Shown here: in pieces, positions 30,007 to 37,308 of the stretch
Position numbering within the stretch: the first letter of the stretch is position 1
Layout of the letters: every line of letters starts with the position of its first letter
Source of the DNA: Caballeronia turbans
Lineage (GTDB): Bacteria > Pseudomonadota > Gammaproteobacteria > Burkholderiales > Burkholderiaceae
Assembly: GCA_001544655.2 (NCBI GenBank)
Contig: FCOD02000024.1
Location: forward strand, 1-64,000
DNA length: 64,000 bases
Direction: 5' to 3'
Notes under the pieces: generated by a model
What the model saw: the letters and a program-made list of their open reading frames with translations, nothing else
What the model was told of the DNA's origin: nothing
Database searches by the model: none
Program-made: the position numbers and the translations under genes

Positions 30007-30119
30007 AGTGTTCGACACTTTTGCGAACACCTCTGCTTGACGTTCCGCGCGTGAAGCCCGACCCTGTGCGCAGTGCAACACAGTGCGCAACGCGCCTTCC
30101 GAACACTATGCCGAACACT
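30007..30119. repeat. AGTGTTCG / CGAACACT repeats around a recombinase-like gene start
   Basis: GTGTTCG (30008-30014) and CGAACAC (30024-30030) form a 23-bp inverted repeat with a nine-base spacer. Two more CGAACACT copies follow at 30100-30107 and 30112-30119, straddling the start codon of the recombinase-like gene. This looks like an operator or recombinase-type core site for the adjacent protein. Confidence 0.5.
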
Positions 30120-31148
30120 CCCGATCTTTTTGACCAACAGCGCGCCGACTGGCAGGCCGATCCGCACGCCGCTTTCGATGCATGGCTCGCCCAGCAGTCG
30201 TTCCGGGCGTCATCGGCGGATGTGTATCGCGCGCAGTGGGGCAACTTTCTCGAGTGGCTGGCCGCGAAGCGCGCGACGCTGCATACGGTGCAACGTCCCG
30301 TGATCGAGCAGTTCGTCGCGCAGCTGGACATCCGACGTCCGCAACGCATGCGCTATCTGAGGCTGATCGAGCGCGTGCTGGATCATGTGCGCGAGGTGGA
30401 ATCGGCGGCGACGAATCCGGCGCGATTCATCGCTCAGGACGGCAACGCGGCATGGCGCAAAGCGCGCGACAACGAGCCGACCGGGTTTCTCACTCACGAC
30501 GAGCGGGCGCTGCTCGTCGCGCATCTGTTTTCGCCTATGGGCGCGATGCCGGCCGGGCAGCGCTGGCGCGAGCGACGCGACCGGGCGCTGGTCGCCGTGT
30601 TTCTGGGCGGAGGCGTGAAAACGGGCGAAGCGGCGCAATTGACCGTCGACTGCTACGCGGCGGGCGCGCCGTATATCACCGTCGATGCGTCGAACCCGCT
30701 GTTGATCCGGCAAGCGCGGCTTGCGCCGTTCGCGGTCGAATTGCTCGACAACTGGATCAGCGAGCGCAAGACGGCAGATCTAGCGGGCGAGCTGCTGTTT
30801 CCGGCCGCGTCGTCCGGCCGCCACATGCACAAGGCGACTATGCTGCGCGCGATCGACGCTGTCGTGGCCGCGTCCGGCATCGCCGCATCACGCGTCGCGC
30901 GAGCGAGTCCGCAGACGCTGCGCAACACGTACGCGGCGGAACACTTCGAAGACGGAACGGACCCCGAACGCGTCGGGCAATGGCTCGGATTTCAGCAGAC
31001 GATCTCCGTGCATCGGCTGCTCCGTGCATGGCAGGATTGGATGGGTGAGCAAATACGGGAGCGGGATCTCGCTCAGGCGCGCGTTAGCGGAACGCCCGGC
31101 GGGGATTTACACACAGCCGTCGACGATCCCGAAAACCCTCACCTTTGA
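30108..31148 (+). CDS. tyrosine-recombinase-fold protein lacking catalytic residues
   Basis: A 346-residue protein with the XerC/D layout: an N-terminal SAM-like domain (about 20-110, SFRASSADVYRAQWGNFLEWL) and a C-terminal recombinase domain. Aligned by eye with XerD, the first Arg (G-L-R-x-S-E-L) is K171, the H-x-x-R motif is QTLR (269-272, only R272 kept), the LGH His is F295, and no Tyr occurs at the nucleophile position (VHRLLRAW). It is thus probably a DNA-binding protein rather than an active recombinase. Two rep-type iterons lie inside or at the end of its coding sequence. It is the outermost gene of the replication block; a role in replication or replicon dimer handling is inference. 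Confidence 0.75.
   Translation: MPNTPDLFDQQRADWQADPHAAFDAWLAQQSFRASSADVYRAQWGNFLEWLAAKRATLHTVQRPVIEQFVAQLDIRRPQRMRYLRLIERVLDHVREVESAATNPARFIAQDGNAAWRKARDNEPTGFLTHDERALLVAHLFSPMGAMPAGQRWRERRDRALVAVFLGGGVKTGEAAQLTVDCYAAGAPYITVDASNPLLIRQARLAPFAVELLDNWISERKTADLAGELLFPAASSGRHMHKATMLRAIDAVVAASGIAASRVARASPQTLRNTYAAEHFEDGTDPERVGQWLGFQQTISVHRLLRAWQDWMGEQIRERDLAQARVSGTPGGDLHTAVDDPENPHL
31044..31061 (+). repeat. outlying iteron inside the recombinase-like gene
   Basis: GGTGAGCAAATACGGGAG matches the iteron consensus of the main array (compare 33384-33401, one base different) and has the same orientation, although it is coding sequence 1.7 kb away. Confidence 0.7.
31127..31143 (-). repeat. outlying iteron in inverted orientation
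   Basis: On the minus strand this reads GGTGAGGGTTTTCGGGA, an iteron in opposite orientation to the main array. It covers the last codons of the recombinase-like gene and precedes the convergent KfrA-like stop by about 30 bp. Confidence 0.65.
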
Positions 31149-31172: not shown

Positions 31173-32372
31173 TCACGATGCGCTGACACGCGCCGAGCGG
31201 ATAAAGCCGTCGACAGCCGCGAGCTTGGATGACGCTGCACCCGATGTCCGCTCGCAGTTCGGGCAGGAGAGTTCGTATTCGTCTTCGTGGCGCTGAAGTT
31301 CCGGTTCGCCCGTTTCGCACGCCGGACAGGCGGGGGGCGCCACGACGTGCGCATCCACTTGCGTACCCAGTCTGGCGATTTCGACGGAACTCAGGCGACC
31401 CTCGGCCGCCAGCGACGCAATCAACGCACCGACTTCAGCGCTGGCCCCGGACTGGACACGCTGAGCGTCGCGCTCTCGAACGAGCGCATCGATTTCGTCG
31501 GACTGCGCCCGCACTTGCGATTCGAGCCGATCCGCGCGACTTCTTGCAGCGCTAAGTTGTTGAATGAAATCAAATTCCTTCTGGCCTGCTTCGCGCGCGC
31601 CTGCCTGATAAGTAGCTGCCATGCCGCGCAAGGAGTCGAGCTCGACCAGCATCGGGTGAACGCGTCGTTCAGCTTCCTTGATTGCGTCCTTGATCTGCTG
31701 GGCGTAGTGCTCGGTGTTCTGGCGCAATTCGGCTTGCAGTTCGTCGACCCGGTCGCGAAGCCGCGCAGCCGACTCTTGCTCCTGCTGCAGGCGCGCCGCC
31801 AGGGTCTCGTTTTCCTTTTCCCAACGCGCGATGACCTCGCGTAGACCGGCCTGAGCGCCCGATCCCTCATTGCGCAGCGCCTTCAGTTCGGCTTCCAGGG
31901 CGGCGATCTGTGCAGCGTTGGCTTCGGCGCGTGCCTCCGCACGCTGATGGGCCTGCTCGATCGCCTCGCGACGAATGTTGGCATCCCGAACCTGCGCCTG
32001 CGCGGCCTGGACGGCCGCGTTGAGACGAGCTTTGTCGTCGTCGAGAGCTGCGAGTGCGAGTTTTTGAGCCTCGTCATAGAGCGCCGCCAGCAGTTCGCCT
32101 GCGCGTTGCTGCAACACCTCCGGCATCGCGCCGGCGTCGATGCGCACGCGCAGCGCCGTGCGCAGGCCCGCCCAAAAGGCTTCGATATCTTTGGGAATGT
32201 CGCTCGCGCTGCCCGTCTGTGTGAGTTCGCGGACGGTGGTGACTGAAGGTCGTATGCCGAGGTCGAAGAAAAGCCGCTTGCACGCGTGCTGAGAAAGATC
32301 TTGCCGTCGGGCGCCTGCGGTACGCATCGCTTCGATTTCCTGACGCAAGATGTCGCGGGTGTGCTGATTCAT
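31173..32372 (-). CDS. KfrA-like DNA-binding coiled-coil protein with C-terminal zinc ribbon
   Basis: About 399 residues. The N-terminus (about 1-70) matches the plasmid replication-region DNA-binding domain of KfrA (SVTTVRELTQTGSASDIPKDIEAFWAGLR). Residues about 90-310 are a long Ala/Glu/Gln/Arg coiled coil. The C-terminus has CPAC (349-352) and CPNC (370-373), a four-Cys zinc ribbon not known to me in classical KfrA. KfrA proteins form filaments, autoregulate and help plasmid segregation. No clear ribosome site marks the start; an ATG at 32405 would add 11 residues but would overlap operator-like repeats. Position beside the iterons supports a replicon-maintenance role. Confidence 0.78.
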   Translation of the reverse strand: MNQHTRDILRQEIEAMRTAGARRQDLSQHACKRLFFDLGIRPSVTTVRELTQTGSASDIPKDIEAFWAGLRTALRVRIDAGAMPEVLQQRAGELLAALYDEAQKLALAALDDDKARLNAAVQAAQAQVRDANIRREAIEQAHQRAEARAEANAAQIAALEAELKALRNEGSGAQAGLREVIARWEKENETLAARLQQEQESAARLRDRVDELQAELRQNTEHYAQQIKDAIKEAERRVHPMLVELDSLRGMAATYQAGAREAGQKEFDFIQQLSAARSRADRLESQVRAQSDEIDALVRERDAQRVQSGASAEVGALIASLAAEGRLSSVEIARLGTQVDAHVVAPPACPACETGEPELQRHEDEYELSCPNCERTSGAASSKLAAVDGFIRSARVSAS

Positions 32373-32387
32373 GTCCGAGAATAAGCC

Positions 32388-32430
32388 GTTCAACATAACG
32401 ATCATAACGTTTTACGTGTTGAACGTTATG
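32388..32430. promoter_or_regulatory. operator-like inverted repeats upstream of the KfrA-like gene
   Basis: GTTCAACA (32388-32395) and TGTTGAAC (32417-32424) are perfect inverted arms. They are interleaved with CATAACG (32394-32400 and 32403-32409) and its complement CGTTATG (32424-32430). This dense dyad directly at the gene start fits autoregulation, as known for KfrA. Confidence 0.6.
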
Positions 32431-32697
32431 AAAATGGTTTGTTGATCTGCCCCAATGTCCCTGTCAGACCGCTTCCTGCCGTTTTAAGCATTCGAGCCGG
32501 CGTCGTCGAGGTTATTCGTGAAACATCCTGAGATTGTGGCTACAAGCCTATGATTTAGCAAGGGATTTACGATATATGCGTTTTCCGGGCGATGTTTCAC
32601 GCGTTTTGTATCGCAGCTAGCGAAAGAGACTCAGTGGCGCTTGAGAGTATTAGAAGTAAACACCCTTGAACCTTGTTAACCCTGTTAACGCCGCGGT

Positions 32698-32731: not shown

Positions 32732-33974
32732 GGTGAGATTGTACGGGAACTATGGTGAAGCTATTCGGGAGGGATCGGTGACGGGCTTCGGGACAGTCAG
32801 TGAGCACCTGCGGGAGGGATCGTGAGGGGATTCAGGGAGCGTGGTAAACATCTAGGTGAGCGTATTCGGGAGACTAATACCCTGTCGGCGTTGCTATACG
32901 TGAATCCTCTCATGCCCAGCAATTGGGGAAAGGTGAGGATTCTCGGGAGGCGGCTAGATGGGGTGTTAACTACATGTATGAAGTAATAATTCCCGACAGG
33001 TGAGCGTTTACAGGAAAGGTTCGGGAACGAAGGTGAGTCTTTTCGGGCGAATGTGCAACATTGCGCTGCTCCCTGGTGTAGTTTTGATCGAAGAGTGAGC
33101 TTTTTCGGGAGTAATGGACTGGCGGCCGGGGGTGTTGAGCCGCAAGACTGCCCCTCGCGACCGAAACTTTCAGGCTCGACGATGTAAGGTGAGCATTTTC
33201 GGGAAGAGACAGCGTAGTACTGGCGAACGTTCTGTAGGAAAAGTACCCAGTTTATGGTGAGGAAATCCGGGATGTCACTTTGTCGAGTTGGATGGAGAGC
33301 GAGCGCCGCCGCTTCGTCCTGATGTCGTAACTCCCGTGAAATCAGATAGATAGGCCGAGGCCCGCGTGGTTGTGATGAGGGATGGTGAGCAAATTCGGGA
33401 GCGGCTGGTACCGCTAGTTTTCTGTAGCACAGCGTCAAAAGGTGAGGCTTTGCGGGAGCCGGTGTCCGCATAGCCACGCAGTGAAAGCGAGATAGGTGCC
33501 CAAAAAGGCGCGTTTTTCCGACGGCGACTCGCAAAGGTGAGCCTTTGCAGGAGCCCGAGGCCGTGCTTTTTGGTTCTTGCGCGCGCTTCAAGACTCAGTC
33601 GGTGAGCATTTACGGGAGGTTATTCCGTTGTGCGGACGCCGGGATAGGGCCTCGGCGTACATATAACGTCCGGTCCACCCGACTCGAAGGTGAGAGTTTT
33701 CGGGACGTCTTGCTGGGCTGGACGCAGAGTGAAGAGCGTTAGCGCTGGATTTGCACCTCAACCGTCACAATCGCGTGCTAGTTCATGTTCAAGTGCCGGA
33801 ATGTCTCTCGCGTACCACACCTCATAATGCGCCAAAAAAATCGCAGGTGAGTGTTTTCGGGACCTGCGTTCGGACGTTGCGGGCACTTCCAGAAATCCCC
33901 GCATTTCGTTTACCCGTGCGGGCAGTGCTTATATGAGATGAACCCGATTGGTGAGCGGTGAGCGTTTACAGGAG
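32732..33974 (+). repeat. iteron array: putative replication origin
   Basis: At least 19 copies of an 18-bp repeat, consensus GGTGAGCNTTTNCGGGAG, all in the same orientation and pointing to rep. Examples start at 32732, 32754, 32777, 32855, 32932, 33032, 33094, 33188, 33256, 33384, 33441, 33536, 33601, 33689, 33846 and 33957. Spacing is irregular (about 22 to 160 bp), close-packed on the left and loose on the right. The region of about 1.65 kb has no credible gene and lower GC than its surroundings. This is the binding region for the adjacent Rep_3 initiator. I saw no convincing consensus DnaA box. Confidence 0.88.
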
Positions 33975-34054: not shown

Positions 34055-35449
34055 ATGGGTATCCTTGCTCGCAATATCGATCCTGACCATCTCATGGCCA
34101 CCAAGCGCGCAAAGAAGACCGACGTAGTCAGCCCGAGCTCGGCGGAATTGCGCAAGGCGGTCGAGGCTATTGCGATTCAACCGAAGAGCGGCAAGATCAC
34201 GCTGCTCACCCGAAAGCTCTTCAATGTGCTCCTCGCAGTCGCTCAGCAGGCTGACGACGCTGGCGACACGTATCGCGCGCTGTTATCGGATATCGTCGCG
34301 AACTCTGCGTTCGACTCGAACGATACCGCACTTGTCAAAGAGCATTTGCGTCGCATGGTGTCGGTGCAGGTCGAGTGGAGTACCGGCACGTCGAGCCAGA
34401 AGCCCGGTCGGAAATGGGGCATTTCGACGCTGATCGCCGATGCGGAAATTCTCGAAGATCCGACAACACGTCGCGTATGGGTCGAATTCTCTTTCGCGCC
34501 CAAAATCAAAAAGAAGCTGCTGGATCCCGTCCAGTATGCGCGACTAAGCCTGCAGTTCCAAAGCCAACTGCGCAGCAGCGCTGGCCTTGCACTCTACGAA
34601 ATCTGTGTTCGCTACTTGACCAATCCCAGTCATCTGACGATGCGCGAAACGTGGGAGTGGTGGCGGCCGATCCTTTCCGGTACGCCCGACACCGAAGCCG
34701 GCGACGAAGCCAAGCGCGAATACAAATACTTCAAGCGCGATTATCTGCGCCCCGCGATTGCCGAGGTGAATGCGGTAACCAACATCTTCGTCGAGTTGGT
34801 CGAACATCGTGAAGGGCGGCGGGTCGCTGAAATTCAGTTCCGCGTCACCGAGCGCAAGCAGCCGATGCTGGCGCTCGACGAACATCCGAACGTGTTCGAC
34901 AGTACGCTCGTTGATCGGATGGTAAAGATTGGCATTCCATTGAAAGACGCGCAGACACTTTACGCAGACAGCGAGGAAAACCGCATCCGCGCGGCGCTCC
35001 AGATGACGGAGCAGCGCATGCGCAGCACAACCCTACCGCCGGTTCGCAGCGCAGCGGCTCTTTTTAAGGACGCGCTCAAGAAGGGCTATGCGCCGCCTGT
35101 AGAGGCACTGCCCCCCGCAACGAGCGGTACGGCGGTGCGCACGCCAGCGACCGCTTCTGCCGCCGACGATCTCAAGGCCCGCTTGCTGAGCGAGTTTTCG
35201 GCCTACCGCCGCAAGGAAGCGCGCGTGCTGTACGACGAGCAAGGTGAGGAAGAACGGGAGATCGCGCGCCAGTCTTTCGAGGAGGATGTGCTTCCGGGGC
35301 TGGGCACGCATATGCGCGACGATTGGCGCAAGCGCGGACTGGATTCCAAGCTCGCGGAGACATCCTTCTTCGACTGGTTGGCTCGAAAGACATGGGGCGA
35401 GCCTACGGATGGCGACTTGTTGGCATTTACGCTGAGTCAGTCGCGCTGA
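34055..35449 (+). CDS. Rep_3 family replication initiator
   Basis: A 464-residue initiator. Residues about 40-150 and 155-280 fit the two winged-helix domains of Rep_3/RepB proteins (ITLLTRKLFNVLLAVAQ; YARLSLQFQSQLRSSAGLALYEICVRYL; YKYFKRDYLRPAIAEVN). A Pro/Ala-rich linker (about 335-375) leads to a C-terminal helical domain (about 380-464) not found in small plasmid Reps. It should bind the iterons immediately upstream and start replication. The ATGs at 34055 and 34094 are both possible, neither with a clear ribosome site. It is convergent with parB. Confidence 0.9.
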   Translation: MGILARNIDPDHLMATKRAKKTDVVSPSSAELRKAVEAIAIQPKSGKITLLTRKLFNVLLAVAQQADDAGDTYRALLSDIVANSAFDSNDTALVKEHLRRMVSVQVEWSTGTSSQKPGRKWGISTLIADAEILEDPTTRRVWVEFSFAPKIKKKLLDPVQYARLSLQFQSQLRSSAGLALYEICVRYLTNPSHLTMRETWEWWRPILSGTPDTEAGDEAKREYKYFKRDYLRPAIAEVNAVTNIFVELVEHREGRRVAEIQFRVTERKQPMLALDEHPNVFDSTLVDRMVKIGIPLKDAQTLYADSEENRIRAALQMTEQRMRSTTLPPVRSAAALFKDALKKGYAPPVEALPPATSGTAVRTPATASAADDLKARLLSEFSAYRRKEARVLYDEQGEEEREIARQSFEEDVLPGLGTHMRDDWRKRGLDSKLAETSFFDWLARKTWGEPTDGDLLAFTLSQSR

Positions 35450-35556: not shown

Positions 35557-36621
35557 TTACTTTTCGGCGTCGGAAGGCTGAAGCATGAGCTCGATCTGAT
35601 GCAGCAACGCATCGCGCTTGTCCCGCGACAAGCCCCGCAAACGCAGTTCAAGACGATCTTCACCGTATGACTTCAGATCGCCGACTGCGACGCCATCCAG
35701 CTTGATCTCGAGACGCTGCGCATAGCGCTGACGGCTCGGTGTCTTCGGTGTTTCTTGAGCGCTCGCACGACCTTTGACGATATCGGCGACCTGGCGGGTG
35801 CTCAGATCGTCCGACGTGATCTTGTTGATGAGCCGCAACGTCGCGTCGCTGCCGCGCGCCGCATGATAGCGGGCGATCTGATAAGCCATGTTCGAGCCGA
35901 ACCGGTCCGGCCGCGCGACCATCTCGTGCATGACGTTCTCGGGAAGCTTCGCGATGGATAGCGCCACGGCGATTGTCGATTCATCCAGACCGAGATGGTC
36001 GGCCAGTTCGCGCTGACTCTGGAAGTGCTGCTCGTCGAGGAAGCGCCGCCAGACTACGGCGTTGTCGAACACGGTTTGTGAGTCGCGTTGAACGTTGAGG
36101 TCGTAACCCAGCTTGTAGCTCTGAATGCCAATCGGCAGGTCGACGACCACCGCCTTGACCGTTTCCTTGTTCGCCTCTTTGAGCGCCCGTACGCGGCGAC
36201 CGCCATCGCTGACGAAAAACGTTCCCGGGCTTTCGTAGTCAGGGATGACGTGAATCGCCTGCTGTTGCCCCTGCTTCGCGAGATTGACGGCCAATTCCGC
36301 AATCGAGGTCTTGAGATAGAAATGGCGCGGATTGAACGGACTGGGTTTGATTGACTTGAGCGGCAGTTCGATCACTTGGCCCGTCGTATAACGGTTAGCG
36401 CGCCGCCACGCGCGATATTCATCGGACTCCGGTCCGGTATTCACGTCGGCGGGATCATCGGCGACGAAAGCGCTCGATCGGCCATTCGCGGCAGCCTGCC
36501 CCACGTGCTGAATGTCGACGATGCCATCGATTGCATTGAGACGATCGAGCGCCGTGCGCTTCTCACTGCTTGTCGAATCGGGGCGAGCCTTGAAGCCCTT
36601 TGCAAACTGAGACGGTTTCAT
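35557..36621 (-). CDS. parB: chromosome/megaplasmid partition protein ParB
   Basis: A 354-residue ParB. Residues about 75-175 are the ParB N-terminal CTP-binding domain (ELPLKSIKPSPFNPR, then FVSDGGRRVRALKEA, the G-x-R-R-x-R-A signature). A helix-turn-helix follows near 200-225 (SQRELADHLGLDESTIAVALSIAKLP). The C-terminal dimer domain ends at 354. It loads on the TTTATGCGCATAAA sites and spreads. It follows parA in one operon with a parS in the 24-bp gap, so ParB could repress its own expression. Confidence 0.93.
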   Translation of the reverse strand: MKPSQFAKGFKARPDSTSSEKRTALDRLNAIDGIVDIQHVGQAAANGRSSAFVADDPADVNTGPESDEYRAWRRANRYTTGQVIELPLKSIKPSPFNPRHFYLKTSIAELAVNLAKQGQQQAIHVIPDYESPGTFFVSDGGRRVRALKEANKETVKAVVVDLPIGIQSYKLGYDLNVQRDSQTVFDNAVVWRRFLDEQHFQSQRELADHLGLDESTIAVALSIAKLPENVMHEMVARPDRFGSNMAYQIARYHAARGSDATLRLINKITSDDLSTRQVADIVKGRASAQETPKTPSRQRYAQRLEIKLDGVAVGDLKSYGEDRLELRLRGLSRDKRDALLHQIELMLQPSDAEK

Positions 36622-36645: not shown

Positions 36646-37308
36646 TCAGGACAGCATGGCGAGGATCTCGTCCGCCACGGCGCGGATCTCCGCTGCCGCG
36701 AGACGCGACCCGCGATCGCTCATTTGAAGGACGGTCACACCGAGTGCCATCGCCTGCTTGTAGCACTCGCGCGTGGGGATTTGGGTTTTAAGCAAAGGAA
36801 AGCCGAGCTCTTCGAGCGCGACTTTGAGTTCGCGTGTGAGCATGCGCTTCTCTTCCGTCTTGTTGAGCAGGAAGACAGCGCGCAGATCTTCGCTCATCAC
36901 CTGTGCTTGTTGGACGAGCTTAACCAGACCGACGCTTGACCAATAATCCGCAGGCGACGACGAAGTCGGAATCACGGCGACGCTCGCCGCGAGCAGCACG
37001 ACGCCGGACACTTTCTCGGTGATCGACGGTGGGCAATCCACGACGATGATGTCGTAGTCGTTGACGAACTTCTTGATCTCGCGGTGGATCTGTCCTCCCG
37101 CTTCGGAGAGATTGACGACCGGAAACGGAATTCCGCTTGCGCCGTCCGATGCGGCGCTCGACCAATGTACCAAGGTGTTCTGACCATCCGCGTCGACCAC
37201 CAGCACACGCTTCTTTTTTTCGTGAAAGGCCGCACCGAGATGCATCGCAATCGTGCTCTTGCCGACGCCACCCTTCTGCTGCGTGATCGCTATGATTTCC
37301 GCCGCCAC
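36646..37308 (-). CDS. parA: partition ATPase ParA
   Basis: A 220-residue Walker-type ATPase without an N-terminal helix-turn-helix, so of the short ParA form. It has deviant Walker A QKGGVGKST (about 10-18), VLVVDADGQ (Walker A') near 36-43 and DIIVVDCPPS (Walker B) near 85. It forms ATP-dependent gradients on DNA that move ParB-parS complexes. The likely start is GTG at 37308 with GGAGCG upstream. It is the first gene of the parAB operon; two parS sites lie in its upstream region. Confidence 0.93.
   Translation of the reverse strand: MAAEIIAITQQKGGVGKSTIAMHLGAAFHEKKKRVLVVDADGQNTLVHWSSAASDGASGIPFPVVNLSEAGGQIHREIKKFVNDYDIIVVDCPPSITEKVSGVVLLAASVAVIPTSSSPADYWSSVGLVKLVQQAQVMSEDLRAVFLLNKTEEKRMLTRELKVALEELGFPLLKTQIPTRECYKQAMALGVTVLQMSDRGSRLAAAEIRAVADEILAMLS

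Follow-up and report, generated by a model that had tools for sequence, protein, structure and literature searches.

The 64-kb window (the whole stretch of DNA that was analysed) carries, at positions 30,108 to 31,148 of the plus strand, the gene of a catalytically dead tyrosine-recombinase-fold protein of 346 aa, here called INT, which we propose to be a terminus-site-binding protein. On the sequence comparisons reported below, a Tus-like replication fork trap built on this dead recombinase is the best explanation that we can offer for INT together with the 13-bp sites that accompany it, and we regard this explanation as reasonably probable.

INT has a tyrosine recombinase fold and has lost its catalytic residues

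In the ORF reading of the window, the INT frame starts with ATG and runs for 346 aa with zero internal stops, and it is thus as intact and full length as the preliminary description of this DNA had held. Phage_integrase (PF00589) was its sole Pfam match (E = 5.4 × 10−11, 43 bits, cut-off 27.1), and the nearest solved relative by profile was XerD (E = 8.9 × 10−16). PF00589 was present in 47 of the 47 INT family members that were scanned, which gives the family the fold of core-binding plus catalytic domain. When the AlphaFold2 model of INT (pLDDT 69.5, pTM 0.47) was used in Foldseek, XerA was the best match (E = 8 × 10−9), followed by XerD (E = 4.9 × 10−7) and then by Cre and others; since most of these matches had TM scores of only 0.33 to 0.43 and rmsd values of 11 to 20, the model backs the fold, and the placement of side chains lies beyond it.

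Residues were assigned by alignment to XerC and XerD of the same genome. Compared with these host enzymes, the catalytic set R-K-H-R-H-Y reads K-none-Q-R-F-L in INT: the first Arg (XerD 160) is K171, H255 is Q269, H259 is N273, H281 of the LGH motif is F295, and Y290 is L305. No β-hairpin Lys was found in the INT stretch aligned with XerC/XerD, and the second Arg (R258, corresponding to R272) is the sole catalytic residue retained. The changes from Arg to Lys, from H-x-x-R to Q-x-x-R and from the LGH His to Phe, which had been claimed from the window sequence, were all confirmed in this way. None of the chromid orthologues of INT compared below has the complete R-K-H-R-H-Y set of an active tyrosine recombinase. 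It is therefore well supported that INT is a tyrosine recombinase fold with lost catalysis, which would have retained the DNA-binding fold without strand exchange. The database label “tyrosine-type recombinase/integrase” would then need correcting, and these proteins probably cannot recombine.

The dead active site is conserved under purifying selection

Chromid orthologues were taken from the best 80 of 277 loci fetched; L099 was dropped for its broken frame of 188 aa and L106 was kept despite a frame-shifted stretch, which left 79 rows. In these rows, the first-Arg column was Lys in 79 of 79, the HxxR His column was Gln in 71, His in 7 and Arg in 1, the second-Arg column was Arg in 78 and Cys in 1, and the LGH His column was Phe in 78 and Leu in 1, the lone Arg and the lone Cys both coming from the frame-shifted L106. 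The Tyr column was the most variable, with Tyr in 42, His in 34, Leu in 2 and Gln in 1. Thus, the nucleophile, which the preliminary description had called absent, is indeed missing from INT of the window (Leu) and from its closest kin, and the statement does not hold for the family. The full catalytic set was found in none of the 79 rows, so that the orthologues at chromid rep loci, the comparison to which that description had pointed, conserve the substitutions.

The median dN/dS of INT was 0.08 to 0.10 (unsaturated pairs), indicating purifying selection, as compared with 0.02 to 0.07 for Rep, ParA and ParB and 0.09 to 0.14 for KfrA. INT is conserved, not decaying. In its relatives at 24 to 44% identity, some of which are encoded on plasmids of Cupriavidus, Pseudomonas, Mycetohabitans, Pandoraea and Azospira, LRH is replaced by LRN or LRG, and the first Arg is often Lys and sometimes Thr, Ser, Ile or Gln; the usual catalytic residues were retained in one fetched relative (L201). 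In a tree of rows selected for their similarity to the query INT, 27 dead LRN/LRG rows fell on one side of a branch and 15 active-looking rows on the other (support 99/97). The conserved substitutions, the dN/dS values and this branch agree with the earlier suggestion that selection has kept the DNA-binding fold without strand exchange, and it is a supported view that INT was “repurposed” from a recombinase.

Mixed states were observed in L197, L196 and L198 (in L197 the first Arg is kept and a Tyr stands near the end, yet the motif reads LRN), and these proteins are possible intermediates in the loss of catalysis. No INT relatives were found in viral contigs. Elsewhere in the window's genome, five integrase-like matches lie within 5 kb (G000 C40, 57,968 to 62,703), a cluster that we take to be, possibly, recombinase-in-trio elements.

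A 13-bp site lies at the INT gene

In several distant plasmids, as well as in Paraburkholderia and Burkholderia chromids, a GYARYTAACRGWM motif is located upstream of INT directly after a −10-like box, and other Caballeronia, Paraburkholderia, Burkholderia and some plasmid relatives have a clear copy of the 13-bp site at this promoter position. Among 34 INT relatives tested, 11 had the upstream motif, including all 9 non-window rows of the supported clade around INT, and it was absent in L061, L063 to L070, L072, L077, L079, L080 and others. Five plasmids (234 to 763 kb), chosen because the upstream copy had already been seen on them, were used for a motif count, and each contained two copies of GYARYTAACRGWM and no more: one lies upstream of INT and the other, inverted (convergent), inside INT, at a distance of 609 to 652 bp. 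The promoter and internal copies were identical on four plasmids and differed by one base on the fifth, and the form of the site varied between the five. Since the reversed control of GYARYTAACRGWM yielded 10 matches on these plasmids versus 10 real ones, and the looser GYARYTAACRGWM was rarer than the reversed pattern in all six whole genomes counted, it is place and polarity, with the copies matching, and not number that carry the claim. The only two copies of a plasmid, both at INT and matching each other, point to one binding protein, which would most simply be INT.

The internal copy also left a trace in the codons: V180-S181-C182, which lie under it, showed zero synonymous change in 20 Paraburkholderia/Trinickia rows, and only 1 of 289 three-codon windows (V180-S181-C182 itself included) was that low. 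At the chromid loci (best 80 of 277), the strict leader form of the site was present in 50 of 79, and the internal copy, whose orientation at the chromid INT would be harmless, was exact in 3 of the 79 orthologues and one mismatch off in 3 more. The promoter copies end in GTC on all five plasmids, and the best promoter match ended in G[TA]C in 0 of the 79 chromid loci, the window's close kin being without a clear copy. When a pattern ending in A or C was searched in W01 and G343, 13 sites ended in C and 2 in A; the two A-ending sites are the INT promoter copies, located beside the origin and in the opposite polarity.

In the window itself, a promoter-side stretch at 30,066 to 30,096 of the plus strand (GTGCGCAGTGCAAYACAG..GCGCA), conserved in 14 close Caballeronia, may with low confidence be taken as a degenerate remnant of the 13-bp site, and a degenerate internal copy with 4 mismatches (GCAGTCGACGGTC) was recognized by eye at 30,641 to 30,653 of the minus strand, at the T-V-D-C codons. 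Thus, the site in its own promoter that is expected of a fork trap protein was found on all five selected plasmids and is degenerate both in the window and in closely related loci. Because both gene-borne copies are degenerate, autoregulation of INT in the window's own species is doubtful; the window's genome still holds 3 exact 13-bp sites elsewhere.

The sites accompany INT across genomes and are polar

All 19 of the 19 genomes with a close INT contained the sequence GCAACTAACGGWC, with 85 occurrences in total (that in G016 which is inside INT itself included), and it occurred 0 times in 11 genomes without, these 11 being also more distant kin, two of which (G059 and G372) have INT relatives at 31 to 38%. 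The reversed control was found 34 times in the same 19 genomes and 3 times in the 11, and a one-base variant gave 1 match across the same 30 genomes.

Polarity was scored for 49 sites from eight few-contig genomes and one chromid record (W01), with G051's two sites left out. When contig starts were taken as origins, those of W01 and G043 C1 being set at their Rep, 42 of the 49 sites were polar (plus in the first half, minus in the second). On the 18 replicons with a placed origin, all 36 of 36 sites, partly shared by descent, were polar, with plus sites on the right arm and minus sites on the left; this count omits 7 replicons for which no origin was placed, with 13 sites (7 polar and 6 not, by the contig-start guess). 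Origins were placed at Rep or, for chromosome 1 (dnaA) and for G001 C2 and C3 and G011 C3 (rep/par-like), set by eye from contig-start ORFs, and the G034 C4 site is polar only after its origin was placed at a weak Rep match (27.8 bits). In 11 of the 11 replicons having both orientations, the innermost site pair brackets mid-replicon; chromosome 1 of G343 has minus sites only (3). As for the plasmids, rep was found on four; INT lies approximately across the circle from it in two (0.45 and 0.40 of the circle) and not in pMOL30 (0.20) or pSTY (0.78).

In one strain, the innermost sites enclose the GC skew maximum and a dif-like site

The terminus was analysed in Caballeronia sp. M1242, with dif located by the Burkholderia form given in PMC2731167; E. 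coli-like dif patterns had no match in the examined replicons. On chromosome 2, the skew maximum (646,107) and a dif-like site (646,073, 4 mismatches) are found between the sites at 635,078 (plus) and 656,485 (minus), the latter being a one-mismatch site whose orientation is polar only when judged by skew and dif and anti-polar when judged by mid-replicon. Two other sites, 845,141 (minus) and 424,605 (plus, one mismatch), are nearer the origin on their arms. On chromosome 1, of which 400 kb was read, the skew maximum (1,421,823) and a dif-like site (1,421,477, 2 mismatches) are located between 1,215,650 (plus) and 1,508,196 (minus).

As a control, 200 shuffled 13-mers gave 0.025 exact matches per chromid versus 2 observed, and at one mismatch or fewer 172 of their 354 matches were polar, that is, they had no polarity. 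With the real site at two mismatches or fewer, 12 of 18 matches on chromosome 2 of M1242 were polar. These data indicated that sites of opposed polarity bracket the terminus and dif, as in a fork trap, the part on dif and skew coming from one strain and two replicons.

A fork trap is the favored explanation of INT and its sites

The layout of the INT sites is like those of Tus and RTP and therefore looks like a fork trap. In the mechanism that we propose, INT would bind the 13-bp motif, as the matching copies and the co-occurrence suggest, and the bound sites would admit forks and stop those leaving the terminus on chromosome 1, the chromid and some further replicons, so that a chromid-borne INT would serve other replicons in trans, and the promoter copy of the site would give INT autoregulation. 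The INT gene would at some point have come to adjoin the chromid origin, where the promoter copy lost its 3′ C, presumably because that copy is opposite to the terminus sites and a working barrier there would stop the fork leaving the origin; such a loss would be expected if an origin-proximal barrier were selected against. GCAACTAA may resemble the E. coli Ter core.

Taken as a whole, the proposal is that of a third, independent fork trap, in which a plasmid-derived dead recombinase, whose gene today adjoins the chromid origin in Burkholderia sensu lato, would act in trans via GCAACTAACGGTC sites to close the termini not only of the chromid but also of chromosome 1 and further replicons, its promoter site having been disarmed beside the origin, and we put the chances of this proposal slightly above even. 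According to the portions of PMC6549158 and PMC10331603 consulted, most bacteria are considered to lack a fork trap, and those described use one of two unrelated proteins, Tus or RTP. No description of INT, the 13-bp motif or a Burkholderia fork trap was found in the open-licence PMC literature searched. If the proposal is true, Burkholderia, Paraburkholderia and Caballeronia own a fork trap on a third protein fold that acts on several replicons at once, a recombinase turned roadblock, and this would bear on how multipartite genomes finish replication and on how a plasmid becomes a chromosome. The 13-bp site is short and exact, which makes the idea readily testable.

The same site data could reflect an INT that binds polar terminus sites without stopping forks and marks or organizes the terminus, for example by regulating FtsK/XerCD at dif or by synapsing paired sites uncleaved. 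INT has an XerD-type fold, dif is located between the inner sites in the strain examined, and recombinases of this fold typically form synaptic tetramers. However, the chromosome 1 sites of M1242 are 87 and 206 kb from dif, and a polar fork barrier would better account both for the convergent arrangement and for the lack of the 3′ C in promoter copies beside the origin, such that we consider a terminus marker a minority prospect.

Alternatively, another protein might own the terminus sites, with INT merely one of its regulated genes, since the copies at INT are degenerate in the window's kin and exact sites persist elsewhere (G000, G001 and G011). This is unlikely in view of the five plasmids, whose only two copies are at INT itself and match each other, and of the absence of Tus (PF05472), which was found in 0 of 25 genomes or records with a positive E. 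coli control. A fork trap operated by INT thus remains our preferred reading of the sites.

INT adjoins the chromid origin

The gene order in the window is INT+ KfrA− [iterons] Rep_3+ ParB− ParA−. The convergent neighbor of INT encodes a KfrA-like DNA-binding protein (31,173 to 32,405, minus strand), and beyond it are the origin iteron cluster, with 18 copies of a GGTGAGnnTTTTCGGGA-like repeat in the iteron scan (32,732 to 33,973, plus strand), the Rep_3-family initiator of the chromid (34,055 to 35,449, plus), ParB (35,557 to 36,621, minus) and ParA (36,646 to 37,308, minus), the four proteins being assigned by Pfam. The chromid iteron GGTGAGnnTTTTCGGGA is the reverse complement of the B. cenocepacia c2 iteron consensus, as given in the portion of PMC4948915 consulted. 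INT adjoins KfrA in 80 of 80 loci (the best 80 of 277, from Caballeronia, Paraburkholderia and Trinickia), which bears out its earlier placement at the edge of the rep/par block, and the whole INT-KfrA-iteron-Rep-ParB-ParA block is present in 79 of these 80, the exception being a short contig. The other neighbors of INT in these loci vary (DUF2252 or a regulator), and the INT-KfrA-Rep-Par order is also present in a Burkholderia cenocepacia record. The genomes closest to that of the window belong to Caballeronia.

The preliminary description had proposed from this location that INT is an origin-binding, cohesion or copy-control protein of the chromid. The strict synteny with KfrA-ori-Rep-ParBA would favor such a role, as would the two Rep iterons at the 3′ end of INT, a KfrA-like match that is about 4 kb away from INT on a Mycetohabitans plasmid, and three genomes from another family in which a distant relative adjoins rep. 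However, the plasmid relatives examined (annotated regions of seven plasmids; tblastn of window genes) are away from rep, which means that the origin is not the common factor, and rep adjacency was dropped as the key to INT function. The iterons, moreover, belong to Rep, and a conservation map of the KfrA-Rep gap in 21 Caballeronia sequences, which contains the iterons and a few other conserved blocks, has no visible recombinase-type core site, so that origin or iteron binding by INT was likewise rejected. With the sites polar at the termini of several replicons, a role at the origin is not the best reading and appears very improbable. What stands of the copy-control idea is a basis in DNA, the Rep iterons in and at the 3′ end of INT, and not a role of the protein.

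In three genomes from another family of the order (L070, L200 and L204), a distant dead-recombinase gene and a Rep_3-like gene are about 130 to 165 bp apart, and ParA/ParB-like matches are close by; no iteron-like repeats were seen near these genes in L070 and L200, the two of these three that were examined. Within the window, GTGAAACAT and ATGTTTCAC blocks at 32,518 to 32,600 are conserved among the 21 Caballeronia sequences and presumably resemble parS-type half sites. DnaA boxes gave 5 one-mismatch matches in the window versus 3.8 expected.

INT is damaged and Rep is open in some reduced draft genomes (G015 and G036), and INT therefore seems dispensable for the chromid there. Five other reduced genomes (G018, G026, G041, G045 and G047) are without a close INT and without a close Rep, and in G003 (60% complete) Rep was present and INT was not found. 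Damage to INT, and sometimes to KfrA, was observed in the reduced-genome loci L099/L229, L106/L230 and L225 to L228, and two of the INT-damaged reduced genomes are Candidatus Burkholderia verschuerenii and humilis. According to the portion of PMC10809759 consulted, the rep and par genes of C. insecticola chromosome 2 are free of Tn-seq insertions. The words “integrase” and “recombinase” do not occur in the main text of that paper or of Du et al. 2016 (PMC4948915).

Two Rep iterons lie in the 3′ end of INT

One Rep iteron lies inside the INT frame at 31,044 to 31,060 of the plus strand (GGTGAGCAAATACGGGA, encoding MGEQIRE), as identified by the iteron matrix and codon comparison, and another, found by the matrix, lies at the 3′ end of the gene at 31,127 to 31,143 of the minus strand, where it encodes DPENPHL just ahead of the stop. 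These are the only two sites in the 64-kb window that score at least 17 outside the origin cluster. Of 79 loci (from the best 80 of 277), 78 had at least two iteron matches (score 10.5) near the INT stop, and L146 had one. In 31 Caballeronia rows, the synonymous difference was 0.02 for the iteron codons 313 to 318 versus 0.46 for codons 20 to 310, and 0 of 286 INT codon windows were as low as the iteron codons. Given this near absence of synonymous change under the in-frame iteron, part of the conserved C-tail of INT is probably Rep-binding DNA read as protein.

Where the INT frame is damaged, both 3′ iterons were retained in three genomes (G015, G038 and G052), whereas G035 keeps one and G036 has none in place. 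That the whole frame is a relic kept mainly for the iterons at its 3′ end, as their nearly invariant codons and their persistence in some genomes with damaged frames could suggest, is the least probable reading of all, given a dN/dS of about 0.1 over the gene and the retention of the dead signature by plasmid INT proteins encoded away from an iteron origin.

Rep iterons are also scattered elsewhere, mostly less than about 80 kb from the chromid origin (G001 C4, G011 C2, G012 C2, G043 C1 and G046 C2), with few on other replicons among the matches listed. A close iteron pair (63 to 84 bp apart) was observed about 9 to 38 kb from the chromid origin in five genomes, and in the window's genome such a pair is on a separate contig (G000 C74). 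A second c2 iteron cluster 140 kb away is mentioned in the portion of PMC4948915 consulted.

Comparison with known systems

The closest parallel to the proposed INT system is Tus-Ter. According to the portions of PMC10331603 and PMC6549158 consulted, ter sites are present in the promoters of tus and rtp, dif is located between the innermost ter sites, and tus is thought to have been domesticated from a plasmid gene and adjoins the origin in Pseudoalteromonadaceae. INT shares with this system the polar sites around dif, the site in its own promoter and a proposed plasmid ancestry, and its place beside the chromid origin is like that of the Pseudoalteromonadaceae tus. It differs from Tus in coming from an unrelated family, in having another site and in being proposed to serve several replicons from the chromid. 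With RTP-ter of Bacillus subtilis the likeness is in polar terminus sites and autoregulation (PMC10331603, in the same portion), whereas RTP binds as a dimer and is of another family, INT matching PF00589 only. XerC and XerD have the two-domain fold in common with INT, in which their catalytic set is gone. Tfp and GinC of the SE and GInt elements are, in the portion of PMC10214605 consulted, likewise described as tyrosine-recombinase-fold proteins without the RHRY motif; in contrast to INT, which has no active integrase genes beside it in the window ORFs, the neighbor Pfam matches or the 80 loci, they are encoded beside such genes.
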